DNA from: Spirochaetota bacterium
Lineage (GTDB): Bacteria; Spirochaetota; GWB1-36-13; JAKPDD01
Assembly (NCBI GenBank): GCA_029552945.1
Contig: JAKPDD010000041.1
Span: forward strand, 1 to 64,000
Length of the DNA stretch: 64,000 nucleotides
Direction: 5' to 3'
In this document: in pieces, positions 43,463-48,630 of the stretch
Layout of the letters: each line of letters starts with the position of its first letter
Numbering within the stretch: the first letter of the stretch is position 1
Position numbers and translations under genes: made by a program
The notes under the pieces: model-generated
The model's input: only the letters and a program-made list of their open reading frames with translations
What the model was told of the DNA's origin: nothing
Databases searched by the model: none

Positions 43463-43489
43463 TAAAGTTTTATGGTTTTCACCGAATCT
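43463..43489 (+). promoter_or_regulatory. Sigma-28-like flagellar promoter
   Basis: TAAAGTTT (43463-43470) matches the -35 element exactly. ACCGAATC follows, giving CCGA of the -10 GCCGATAA, with 14 bases between TAAA and the -10. It lies about 30 nt upstream of the flgN ATG. Late flagellar genes such as flgKL are typical FliA targets. Confidence 0.6.
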
Positions 43490-43517: not shown

Positions 43518-44012
43518 ATGGAAAGTAAGATAAAAGAGCTTTATATAATACTTCAAAGAGAGCTTAAGGTAATTGAGTTGATAAATGAAACTGAAAAAAT
43601 GAAGAACAGTTTTTTGGTTAAAGGTAAACTTTTTGATTTATCTGAAATAAATGATGAACTATCAAAACTGATAGAGGAAAACCAGAAGTTGGAAAACAAT
43701 AGAGTAAGGATAATAAATGAGATAAAAGAAGAAAAAAATATGAGAAAAGATAATAATGATATAAAGCTTAAAGATATAATATCAATTATAGAAAATGAAA
43801 GTTTGAAAAATAGTTTTCAGTCTCTCTATGAAAAGCTTAAAAAAGAGGTTGAAGAAATAAAATATTACAGTAATTTGAATAACGAACTTATAAAAGCTTC
43901 ACTTGAAGTTATAGATATAACACTTAAAGGTAATGATCTTGATATGAGTGATATTGACTATACTGCAAAAGACAGAAATAATTTTTCAATTTTGATAAAC
44001 AAAATAATATAA
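43518..44012 (+). CDS. flgN: FlgN-type flagellar chaperone
   Basis: A 164-residue, highly helical, charged protein directly upstream of flgK. FlgN proteins keep FlgK and FlgL unfolded for export. The sequence is variable in the family, so the call rests on the position, length and helical LysGlu-rich pattern. It is preceded by a sigma-28-like promoter and GAGGT. It starts the flagellar operon that ends with the FlbB-like gene. Confidence 0.75.
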   Translation: MESKIKELYIILQRELKVIELINETEKMKNSFLVKGKLFDLSEINDELSKLIEENQKLENNRVRIINEIKEEKNMRKDNNDIKLKDIISIIENESLKNSFQSLYEKLKKEVEEIKYYSNLNNELIKASLEVIDITLKGNDLDMSDIDYTAKDRNNFSILINKII

Positions 44013-44026
44013 GCCAAGGAGGGCTT
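44011..44026 (+). promoter_or_regulatory. CsrA-binding hairpin over the flgK Shine-Dalgarno
   Basis: Five-pair stem AAGCC/GGCTT with hexaloop AAGGAG, exactly the ANGGAN loop favoured by CsrA/RsmE. The loop is the flgK ribosome site itself, so CsrA binding would block flgK translation. The stem starts in the flgN stop codon and ends 1 nt before the flgK ATG. Confidence 0.65.
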
Positions 44027-44027
44027 G

Positions 44028-45965
44028 ATGAGTTCTTTTTTAGGAATAGAGATAGGAAAGAGGGGAGTACTCACTCACCAGACTGGGCTTAATGTAATCT
44101 CGCATAACCTGGCCAACTCAGCTAATGAAGCCTACAGCAGGCAAAAAGTTGATGTAAGCACACTTCCACCACTATATAATCCATCTTTTAACAGAGAAAA
44201 TAGTACTGGTCAAATAGGTCAGGGAGGCAGGGTTACTTCTATTGCAAGGGTCAGGGATGAGTTTATTGATTCAAGAATACTTGAGGAGTCTTCAAATCTT
44301 GCATTTTATAAGACAAGAGACTTTTTCATGAAACAGATAGAGCATATAATAAATGAACCAAATGGCCCATCATTAAAAGAGAAGTTTGATGACTTTGTAA
44401 AGTCATGGAATGATGTTGCACTTTTACCTGATGATCCTTCTTCGAGGAACGCACTTATAGCGTCTTCTCAAAATATGTTAGGATATATAAGAGACCATTA
44501 TGAGAATCTTTCAAAGACAAGGGTACATATTGATAATCTTGTAAGAGATAAAGTGAATGAAATAAACTCTTTAGCTGAAAAAATAAGAGACCTTAATGTC
44601 GAGATTGTAAAAATCCAGGCTTTAGGTGATAACCCGAATGATCTTTTAGATAAAAGAGATGCGTTAATAGAGAAACTTTCAAGTATTGTTAATGTTAATG
44701 TTGTCAGGTCAGAGAATAATGAAATAATGGTTTATCTTGACTCGAAGGTGCTTGTTCAAGGTATTAAGGTTACTAAACTTGAGGTTGCTGATGAACCTTC
44801 TAATGATGGTATGGCAAGAGTTTTATGGGAGTATGGTGAAGAGGTGAAGGTAAAGAGTGGTGAACTTTCTGCTTTATTACAGATAAGAGATAATGATATA
44901 TTGAATACTATGAAAAAACTTGATAATTTTCTTATTCAAATGATAGACTCTGTAAATGATATACACAGGAGCGGGTTTGGTATATCTCCTAATACTGGTT
45001 TAAACTTTTTTGGCGTAAAAACAATAACAACAGATGTTAACGGTAATTATGATGTTAATAAGGATGGTCAGTATGATTCAACATATATATTCAAGATTTC
45101 TGGTACTCAAAAAGTTAAACTTGATGATGTAATTGGCGAGAGTGGGTTTATTAATCTTGGGCCTGATGATACTGGGAAAGATGTTATAATATCCTATAAA
45201 GATACAGATACAGTAAGGGCAGTGATAAACAGGATAAACTCATCAGGGGCAAGGATAACAGCTCATATTGATGTAGATGGAAGACTTGTTTTAAAGGGAT
45301 TATATTCTCAATCAAAAGATTTTCCAGATTCAGTAATAAGACACCTTGAAGATAGTGGAGTATTTTTAACAAGTTTTACAGGTATACTAAAACAATCGGG
45401 CCCTGCTGGTGCTTTTGATTATAGAAGGATAAATGAGGCTGATAAATTAGCAGGTGAGTTTAATGTAGCTTACCAAAAAAATGTAAGTACATGGGCAACA
45501 CTTGATGAGGCAATTCTAACAAATCCTATGAACATAGCAGCAAGAAGAGGGAAAGATATAGATGGTGATAATAAAAATGATATTGCTAATGGCAAGGGAG
45601 ATGGGCTTAATGCTCTAAGAATAGTTGCATTACTTACTTCAGAAAATGATAAATCGAGCCTTGATATACAAGCTAAAGCAGATACAATGCCGATTTTTAT
45701 AGATAAGAATGTAACGAGTTTCAGGCCATATTTTGATAGTATAGTAGCTCATATTGGTGAGGTTGCAAAGTCAGATAAATTAAACTATGACAAAGAGAAT
45801 GTTCTGTTTACAGGACTTAAAAATATGAGGGAAGAGGTTTCTGGTGTAAATATAGATGAAGAACTTGTTAACTTAATAAAGTTTCAACAAGGATATCAAG
45901 CATCAGCAAAAATAATACAGACTATGGATACTATGCTTGATATAATAATGAAACTTGGAAGATAA
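44028..45965 (+). CDS. flgK: Flagellar hook-associated protein 1
   Basis: First hook-filament junction protein, 645 residues from ATG 44028. A TTG just before it is in frame, but AGGAGG spacing favours the ATG. The N-terminal GLNVISHNLANSANEAYSRQ and the C-terminal GVNIDEELVNLIKFQQGYQA with following IIQTMDTML are the coiled D0 segments of rod/hook proteins. The middle is variable, as usual. Secreted by the flagellar type III system and capped by FlgN. Its ribosome site lies in a CsrA-type hairpin. Confidence 0.95.
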   Translation: MSSFLGIEIGKRGVLTHQTGLNVISHNLANSANEAYSRQKVDVSTLPPLYNPSFNRENSTGQIGQGGRVTSIARVRDEFIDSRILEESSNLAFYKTRDFFMKQIEHIINEPNGPSLKEKFDDFVKSWNDVALLPDDPSSRNALIASSQNMLGYIRDHYENLSKTRVHIDNLVRDKVNEINSLAEKIRDLNVEIVKIQALGDNPNDLLDKRDALIEKLSSIVNVNVVRSENNEIMVYLDSKVLVQGIKVTKLEVADEPSNDGMARVLWEYGEEVKVKSGELSALLQIRDNDILNTMKKLDNFLIQMIDSVNDIHRSGFGISPNTGLNFFGVKTITTDVNGNYDVNKDGQYDSTYIFKISGTQKVKLDDVIGESGFINLGPDDTGKDVIISYKDTDTVRAVINRINSSGARITAHIDVDGRLVLKGLYSQSKDFPDSVIRHLEDSGVFLTSFTGILKQSGPAGAFDYRRINEADKLAGEFNVAYQKNVSTWATLDEAILTNPMNIAARRGKDIDGDNKNDIANGKGDGLNALRIVALLTSENDKSSLDIQAKADTMPIFIDKNVTSFRPYFDSIVAHIGEVAKSDKLNYDKENVLFTGLKNMREEVSGVNIDEELVNLIKFQQGYQASAKIIQTMDTMLDIIMKLGR

Positions 45966-45977
45966 AGGAGTTAAAAA

Positions 45978-47246
45978 ATGTATAGAGTTTCAAACAATCT
46001 TATCTCAAATAATTTTCTTTTTAATATAAACAGACATGAAAACCAGATGTCTGATATACAAAAAAAAATAGGTTCTCAAAGAAATATATTGTTGCCAAGT
46101 GATGATCCTGTAGGGACAACAGAATATATGTTTCAGAGATCCAGGTTATCAGATATAGAGAGATATAAAAGAGGTATTGACCTTTCTAAAGGTAGGATAG
46201 ATCTTACAGATGCAAAATTAAGGGATATAAATGAACTATTAAAGAGAGCAAAAGAGTTATCAGTTCAGGCTGCAAATGGTGTTTTAACTGCAGAAGATAG
46301 AAAGAAGATAGGTGTTGAGATAGACCAGATACTGGAGGAGGTTGTTCAAATAGCAAACACTAAATATAAAGGAGAGTCTTTATTTGGTGGCACTATAACA
46401 GATGAAGAAGCTTTTAAGGTTACAATCTCCAAGGTTATCGACCCTGCAACAGGTAATATAATATATGGAAAGGAGAGCATATCAAAAGTAGAGTATCAGG
46501 GCGATATTTATAGTAAATATTTTGAGGTTGGAAGAGGCGAGTATATAGCAAGTAATATTCCTGGTAGCAATGTGTTCTGGGCAACAAACCAGGTTATAAC
46601 ATCAAATACTCCAGGTACTGGTTATATAGCAACTAGGGACCAGGTTATAAGAATAGATGGAGTTGAAATACAGATTAAGCAGGGCGATAATATAAACTCA
46701 ATAGTTCAGAAGATAAATGGGGCAAACCTTAATGTAAGGGCTGAGGTAGATAATACAACAGGTCAGAACTTGTTAATATTAAGGACAACTGTTCCTCATC
46801 AGATGTATCTTGAAGACATTGGTGGTGGTACTGTACTTCAGGACCTTGGTGTTTTATCAAGCAGTGTAGCAAGACCACCATATAACTATGCACCTTCTGC
46901 CAGTGTTTACGGTGAAACTATTTTTGATGTTCTTATAGGGTTAAGGAATTCTTTATATAAGAATGATATAAATGGGGTTAATAGAAGTATAGGTGGCATA
47001 GATCAATCTATAAGTTCAGTACTTGATAATATTGCTTATATAGGGGCAATCCAAAGAAGAGTTGAAGATACTGAAAACAGGCTTTCTGCTCAAGATATGT
47101 ATGCTAAAGATATTATTAATAGAATAAATGGGCTTGATATGGCAGAGGCAATAACTGACCTTAAAAATATAGAAACAGAATATAATGCAGCTCTACAGAT
47201 TGGTGCTAAAATATTGCCCAAAACACTTTTGGATTATTTAAGATAG
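45978..47246 (+). CDS. flgL: Flagellar hook-associated protein 3
   Basis: Second hook-filament junction protein, 422 residues, a flagellin relative. The N terminus (MYRVSNNLISNNFLFNINRH) and C-terminal segment (MAEAITDLKNIETEYNAALQ) are typical D0/D1 helices. SDDPVGTTEYM near residue 40 is the FlgL counterpart of the flagellin SDDAAG motif. It follows flgK by 12 nt with AAAGGAG. Confidence 0.94.
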   Translation: MYRVSNNLISNNFLFNINRHENQMSDIQKKIGSQRNILLPSDDPVGTTEYMFQRSRLSDIERYKRGIDLSKGRIDLTDAKLRDINELLKRAKELSVQAANGVLTAEDRKKIGVEIDQILEEVVQIANTKYKGESLFGGTITDEEAFKVTISKVIDPATGNIIYGKESISKVEYQGDIYSKYFEVGRGEYIASNIPGSNVFWATNQVITSNTPGTGYIATRDQVIRIDGVEIQIKQGDNINSIVQKINGANLNVRAEVDNTTGQNLLILRTTVPHQMYLEDIGGGTVLQDLGVLSSSVARPPYNYAPSASVYGETIFDVLIGLRNSLYKNDINGVNRSIGGIDQSISSVLDNIAYIGAIQRRVEDTENRLSAQDMYAKDIINRINGLDMAEAITDLKNIETEYNAALQIGAKILPKTLLDYLR

Positions 47247-47304: not shown

Positions 47305-47787
47305 ATGGAAAAATATATTGATACCCCAGATGGGAAGATAGCAGTTGATGAGAATGAAAGAATATTTTTTCCCGAGGGTATTTATGCTTTTGAAAATTTG
47401 AGGAATTTTTATATACTTAAAATGGATAATGATAATGTTTTTCACTTACTTCAGTCAGAGGAAAGACCTGAGATAGCTTTTATTATAATAAATCCTTATC
47501 TATTCAAAAAAGATTATGTTTTGAATGTTAGAGAAGAGGACTTAAAATATATAAAAATATTGAGTGAAGAGGATGCTGAAAAGAATCTTGCTGTATTTAC
47601 AATAGTTACAATAAATGAAAACTCCATGACAGCAAACTTATTGGGACCAATAATAATAAATCTTAAAGAGAAAATAGGAAAACAGGCTCTTGCATTAAAC
47701 GAGGAATATTCTACAAAACACGATATATTATCGGAGATAGAAAATAACAAAGAGATAAGAGAGGCATTAGGTGTTAGTACTGGCTAG
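47305..47787 (+). CDS. fliW: Flagellar assembly factor FliW
   Basis: A 160-residue FliW. It binds flagellin and, when free, binds and inactivates CsrA, linking flagellin translation to assembly. The conserved core is visible: [19 protein letters not shown] at the start and ILLQSEE-type residues ([13 protein letters not shown]). It precedes and overlaps csrA by 17 nt, the classic partner arrangement. AAGGAG is 8 nt from the ATG. Confidence 0.94.
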
Positions 47788-48025
47788 GAAACCTAATCAG
47801 AGCATAATGATAGGTGATGATATAGAGATAAAGGTTATTGAGGTTAAGGGGGACCAGATAAAATTGGGTATTCAGGCCCCCAAACATATAGCAGTACATA
47901 GGAAAGAGGTTTATGAAGAGATAAAGAAAGCTAATATAGAAGCAACAAAATCAAAAAAATCAGAGTCAACTTTTAAAAAGATAGCTGACCTTCTTAAAAA
48001 AAACAGGGTAGAAGATAAAAAATGA
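47771..48025 (+). CDS. csrA: Carbon storage regulator CsrA
   Basis: An 84-residue mRNA-binding repressor. [16 protein letters not shown] is the hallmark opening, and RNA-binding residues L4 and R44 are kept. A helical lysine-rich tail after residue 60 makes it longer than enterobacterial CsrA (61), as in FliW-controlled CsrA proteins. The start is GTG at 47771, with GAGG inside fliW. It probably represses flagellin and, by the hairpin described here, flgK. Confidence 0.96.
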
Positions 48026-48630
48026 AGTCTGTTCAAAGACAGAAAGTAGTACCTCTTGTATTTCTTAATATTGTTCTTGTACTTATTCTTTTATTTGTAC
48101 TGAATCATTATAATATAATATCTTTTTCAGGCATTATATCAAAAAAAGCTGAAAAAACCCAAGAGTTTATAGAGGACCCATTTTTATTGGAAAAAGAGAT
48201 GCTTAAAAAACAGTGGGAAGTACTTAATGCAAAGGAACAATCATATATTGAAAAGATGAATGAGTTAAAGAAGAAAGAAGAGTTATTAACTGAAAAATTA
48301 AAAGAGGCTGAAAAAGAGATTGAAATAGCTAAAAGCATGCAAAAAAAACAGGAAGAGATAAAGAAAAATTATGAGGATAGAAAAAAGAATGTAAGAGACC
48401 TCGCTTTAAAAATAGGTAATATGCCACCTAAGGATGGGGTTGCTTTGTTAGAAAAGATGGATCCTGTTCTTGCTGTTGATGTTATAAAGGAGATGGATAA
48501 TATAGCTGTAGAGAGAGGTAAAAAGTCTATTACAGATTACTTATTGTCTATAATGGACAAAGAAAAGGCATCAACAATAATAAGACTTATATCAAGGTAT
48601 CCTACTGATACAACTGAAGAAAACAAATAA
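48022..48630 (+). CDS. flbB: FlbB/MotE-like periplasmic flagellar motor protein
   Basis: A 202-residue single-pass membrane protein. There is a membrane helix at about 10-35, a long coiled coil rich in Lys and Glu at about 55-125, and a C-terminal helical domain of MgtE-N/MotE type ([21 protein letters not shown]). In spirochaetes FlbB is a collar protein of the periplasmic flagellar motor that supports MotB and the collar. It overlaps csrA by 4 nt (ATGA), completing the operon. The placement supports a spirochaete origin. Confidence 0.82.

Follow-up and report, generated by a model that had tools for sequence, protein, structure and literature searches.

A hairpin at the start of flgK in this spirochete is probably a CsrA operator of the kind known from spirochete flagellin mRNAs, placed here on the gene for a hook-filament junction protein; judging from sequence, we give this reading a probability of about 0.68. 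The gene belongs to an operon that also encodes CsrA and its antagonist FliW, in a 1.87-Mb genome of 27.6% GC from an isolated class of Spirochaetota. Features in the window (the whole stretch of 64,000 nucleotides that was analyzed) are as follows.

43463..43487, plus strand: sigma-28-like promoter box TAAA-N15-CCGAAT ahead of flgN, a consensus match only
43518..44012, plus strand: flgN, export chaperone of FlgK and FlgL (Pfam PF05130), ending with a stop codon inside the hairpin's 5' arm
44010..44027, plus strand: predicted CsrA-type hairpin UAAGCC-AAGGAG-GGCUUG, its loop the flgK Shine-Dalgarno sequence (SD), core CAAGGAGG
44016..44040, plus strand: alternative hairpin pairing the SD with early flgK codons, favored only in folding windows of ≤50 nt
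44028..45965, plus strand: flgK, hook-filament junction protein (Pfam PF22638)
45978..47246, plus strand: flgL, hook-filament junction protein (Pfam PF00669/PF00700 and operon position)
47305..47787, plus strand: fliW, protein antagonist of CsrA (Pfam PF02623; match to PDB 5dmb)
47771..48025, plus strand: csrA, 84 codons for amino acids, GTG start, 17-nt overlap with the end of fliW (Pfam PF02599; match to PDB 5dmb including the C-terminal extension)
48022-48630: reading frame of 202 amino acids without a Pfam match, overlapping the csrA stop (ATGA)

The genes run in the order flgN-flgK-flgL-fliW-csrA, followed by the frame without a Pfam match, and because this frame overlaps the csrA stop codon the operon probably extends beyond csrA. 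The sigma-28-like box is the probable start of the transcript, and we infer that flgN through csrA are carried on a single mRNA. The initial annotation had placed fliW and csrA three and four genes downstream, a count that is correct from flgN, whereas from flgK they are two and three genes away. The genome holds the parts of a FliW-CsrA-flagellin circuit, with csrA and fliW each present in single copy; in an alignment to 5dmb, a structure of the FliW-CsrA complex, the FliW-contacting C-terminal extension of CsrA lines up with the CsrA chain, and FliW matches the partner chain. Read from its sequence, CsrA carries Leu-4, Arg-6, Val-42, and Arg-44 (L4, R6, V42, R44), which we take to be the residues that contact RNA in other CsrA proteins.

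The hairpin at the flgK start

The stem AAGCC/GGCTT and the loop AAGGAG described in the initial annotation were confirmed, with the two arms at 44011-44015 and 44022-44026 and the loop at 44016-44021, and a sixth pair, U-G between 44010 and 44027, extends the 5-bp stem. The loop is, as had been claimed, both the flgK SD and an ANGGAN motif, its GGA (44018-44020) lying within the SD AGGAGG, which ends 5 nt upstream of the ATG at 44028. The hexaloop is closed by a C-G pair on a stem of 5-6 bp (stability of -6.2 kcal/mol), and it presents the core CANGGANG, a high-affinity hexaloop for CsrA/RsmE (PMC4894983).

When the flgN-flgK junction was folded, the hairpin formed with a probability of ∼0.26-0.99, depending on the folding window, in windows of at least 70 nt, although its rival at 44016-44040 prevailed at ≤50 nt. 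In most folding windows AAGGAG was mostly unpaired, pairing within the SD being confined to its final G; the exception was 43850-44200. The proposal that the hairpin occludes the ribosome site of flgK is therefore not borne out, as the hairpin alone presents the SD. Because the SD is presented instead of hidden, repression would need a protein, CsrA.

The flgN stop codon TAA (44010-44012) lies inside the 5' arm of the hairpin, and 15 nt separate it from the flgK ATG. A ribosome terminating there would melt the 5' arm, and flgN translation may for this reason modulate the site. The same arrangement would suit a translational coupling independent of CsrA, in which the hairpin holds down de novo initiation at flgK until ribosomes terminating on flgN open it, so that FlgK is tied to its chaperone FlgN; the alternative hairpin at 44016-44040, when present, would indeed hide the SD. 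We consider this explanation rather unlikely, given that an SD that sits mostly unpaired in a loop makes the hairpin alone a weak block, that coupling has no need for a CANGGANG core present at only 18 of the 1704 SDs in the genome, and that it leaves unexplained the similar sites found in relatives at flgN, with which the operon begins. Coupling and control by CsrA are compatible, and both can act together.

Two features of the site count against the operator reading: its SD is accessible in the absence of CsrA, and flgK offers a single good site, compared with the pair present in high-affinity leaders. A search for a partner site at the distance (about 18 nt) that would allow bridging by the CsrA dimer found no GGA within 50 nt upstream of the flgK site, and the next GGAs, 25, 37, and 46 nt downstream, are in the flgK coding sequence and outside CANGGANG loops. 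A second CsrA site raises affinity and is not needed at every target.

Rarity of the hairpin in its genome

We scored every start region in the whole genome (1704 genes from a simple ORF caller). No ANGGAN hexaloop hairpin near any other start is as strong as that of flgK, and the runner-up among those overlapping an SD reaches only -1.9 kcal/mol. When any GGA loop of 4-9 nt is allowed, flgK ranks 3rd of 1704. Over both strands of the 1.87 Mb it ranks second; the genome's strongest ANGGAN hairpin, with 14 bp (C30:73195), was rejected as a candidate since it sits within the folP coding sequence. Besides flgK, the 18 genes with the CANGGANG core at the SD include three of the five flagellins, and of all 18 a strong stem is found only at flgK.

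A good SD whose flanks merely happen to pair would explain such a hairpin by chance. In 400 simulated genomes, in which left flanks were re-paired with right flanks across the 558 ANGGAN SD sites, an equally strong site appeared somewhere in 13 (3%), and there is no general excess of such hairpins in the real genome (2 at ≤0 kcal/mol, against 4.4 expected by re-pairing). Chance is also in keeping with the absence of the hairpin from the flgK of distant relatives, described below. However, the gene hit here by this 3% event belongs to the csrA operon, in which such hairpins are enriched in other families, and we regard a chance origin as quite improbable. The minus strand offers a further reading, as the hairpin gives a terminator-like match at 44026-44011 that could serve as an intrinsic terminator of antisense transcription. 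Such matches occur at the chance level (2 found versus 1.5 expected), every gene of the operon is on the plus strand, and the core at the SD would be left unexplained, making a terminator a very remote prospect.

A covariance model of the flagellin SD sites was unselective in this A+T-rich genome; that it placed flgK only 10th by bit score counts against the operator reading. A search of 393 genomes of the phylum for the hairpin motif, with one mismatch allowed, gave 6 other matches, which is the chance level, a reversed control having matched 4 genomes. A suspected CsrB-like RNA with two ANGGAN hairpins (C3:213097-213120) turned out to be where a small reading frame begins and gave no Rfam match.

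The csrA operon and flagellin leaders in other spirochetes

The class is represented by this genome and one other, G001, and the nearest flgK-bearing relatives available for comparison belong to other classes, with FlgK proteins ≤45% identical. The G001 assembly (93% completeness) contains flagellins and gave no match to FlgN, FlgK, FliW, or CsrA; the csrA operon was probably left out of this assembly, or else has truly been lost. In the other classes, distant relatives retain flgN-flgK without a comparable hairpin at flgK: none was found among about 85 distant flgK starts, with 2 of 86 at ≤0 kcal/mol and none reaching -2 kcal/mol. Conservation of the hairpin at flgK is thus absent at long range, which counts against a flgK operator, and the plain CANGGANG count at the flgK of relatives is not enriched either (6/86 versus 13/395, p = 0.13).

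Other genes of the operon gave a different result. SD hexaloops at ≤0 kcal/mol were found at 8 of 61 flgN starts (L011, L020, L022-L026, and L033) and at 5 of 74 flgL starts (L051, L049, L020, L180, and L060), compared with 2 of 502 other genes. Taken together, the csrA-operon genes of relatives have 15 such hairpins in 307 starts against the 2 in 502 (p = 2e-5), or 15/97 against 2/88 when restricted to ANGGAN SDs (p = 0.0015), and if cores with a stem of ≥3 bp are counted in leaders of ≥60 nt, flgN leaders have 8 in 53 versus 1 in 296 for others (p = 1.4e-6), p-values that overstate the strength because some of the genomes are closely related; by genus, the independent cases number about five for flgN and five for flgL. 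Both flgN and flgL beat all 300 flank permutations among ANGGAN SDs, and the identity of the FlgN adjoining flgK in these genomes was confirmed by Pfam PF05130. At flgL the stems reach 7 bp in L049 and 8 bp in L051, a member of another spirochete family in which the flgL SD is contained in the perfect hairpin AATTTTCC-AAGGAG-GGAAAATT.

The flgN leaders of L011 and L022-L024 have a CCGATA box followed by an AAGGAT or AGGGAT hexaloop and then a CCAAGGAGGG SD hairpin, the two sites being spaced 18-19 nt apart. As predicted structures, the flgN leaders of these two families, at the head of the csrA operon, have the full two-hairpin layout of the flagellin type. We give even odds to a wider statement, that across Spirochaetota the CsrA/FliW operon would itself be CsrA-controlled through flagellin-type hairpins that shift among its genes (flgN in several families, two of them with the full two-hairpin layout, flgL in others, and flgK here), autogenous control being conserved though no single site is.

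Flagellin leaders supply the pattern against which these sites can be compared. In 61 flagellin leaders of relatives, with sites chosen by SD and not by pairing, C-ANGGAG-G is near-invariant at the SD, 54 of 56 distinct sequences having the closing C-G, and a further ANGGAN hexaloop lies upstream in many of the leaders. These leaders agree with the flaA leader of Campylobacter jejuni (PMC4894983) and with the flaB4 site of Leptospira (PMC8668096). All six stem positions of the SD hexaloops vary on both sides; stem covariation is 0.263 versus 0.173 after shuffling, a value that none of 500 shuffles reached, with the reservation that relatedness can inflate such counts, and the true stem register outscores every slid register on all measures. 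In form, the predicted flgK hairpin matches the SD-proximal site of flagellin leaders, a point against the operator reading being its second stem pair, C-G here compared with mostly U-A at flagellin sites. The claim that flgK is under CsrA control stands as a predicted CsrA site, well supported indirectly by the CANGGANG core, the rarity of the hairpin in the genome, the company of flagellins that share the core, and the SD hexaloops of the phylum's flagellins, although no comparable hairpin accompanies flgK in distant relatives.

Proposed control of the operon and known CsrA systems

On the operator reading, free CsrA would bind the flgK loop and block the ribosome at flgK, and upon export of flagellin, FliW freed of flagellin would remove CsrA. 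Through this removal FlgK would be made alongside flagellin, after hook completion, when filaments can grow. Since csrA lies three genes downstream, with its own start overlapping fliW, feedback on csrA would be indirect: with less certainty, lower flgK translation might, via polarity or decay of the mRNA, reduce the flgL-fliW-csrA output and in this roundabout way complete a negative loop. The within-operon feedback that had been suggested gains support from other families in which flgN or flgL of this operon carries such a hairpin, whereas the loop on csrA itself we infer. Given the similar loops at other operon genes in distant relatives, our data suggest that the csrA operon may commonly limit its own expression. 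If CsrA does act on flgN, flgK, or flgL of its own operon, then a single switch would couple flagellin export to FliW, CsrA, the chaperone FlgN, and the two junction proteins, and feedback would be placed around the CsrA:FliW ratio.

To our knowledge, the csrA gene of Campylobacter jejuni lies outside any flgN-flgK-flgL-fliW-csrA operon. In that organism the CsrA motif is AAGGA in a hairpin loop, and the flaA leader resembles the flgK site in having ANGGA hexaloops, one of them over the ribosome site, with FliW antagonizing CsrA and with compensatory stem changes among species (PMC4894983). It differs in that the target is a flagellin and the leader has two hexaloops, the second being that over the ribosome site, and flgK mRNA was not enriched with CsrA in C. 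jejuni (PMC4894983), which counts against a flgK operator. Other comparisons come from the same phylum, as Leptospira (PMC8668096) and Treponema denticola (PMC9481697) share the order flgN-flgK-flgL-fliW-csrA and an SD hexaloop beside the start codon of flagellin genes; Leptospira CsrA shifts flaB4 SD hexaloop RNA in a gel (PMC8668096), and CsrA sites have been proposed in T. denticola (PMC9481697). Unlike the case proposed here, the reported flagellar CsrA targets of spirochetes are flagellins, with no site reported in the csrA operon (PMC8668096, PMC9481697). In Bacillus subtilis CsrA likewise acts over the SD and is relieved by FliW released on flagellin export, and the CsrA:FliW ratio is nearly equimolar, but the target is hag and the review describes no flgK site (PMC7652899). 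Escherichia coli CsrA also limits its own expression, and the flgK transcript co-purifies with it, but there is no FliW, and what autoregulation targets is the leader of csrA itself instead of a co-transcribed flagellar gene (PMC7652899).

What is already known therefore comprises the CsrA-FliW circuits, the flagellin SD hexaloops, the gene order (PMC9481697, PMC8668096), and the association of CsrA with flgK mRNA in E. coli (PMC7652899). Spirochete flagella depend on post-transcriptional control (PMC3757020). A literature search, with most subscription papers outside its reach, returned neither a CsrA-type site at flgK within a csrA operon nor, for other spirochete families, shifting sites at the operon's flgN or flgL, and priority is not established for either.

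Two flagellin leaders in the genome studied here are also rich in GGA, ranking 2nd and 9th of 773 leaders by GGA count. Besides 8 GGA in 200 nt, the former (L073; G000:C3, flagellin start 115602, minus strand) has two hairpins, TAACCCAAGGAGGGTTA and, at the SD, acac-ATGGAGG-gtgt; it is a candidate for a CsrA leader with multiple sites, one that might titrate CsrA as well.
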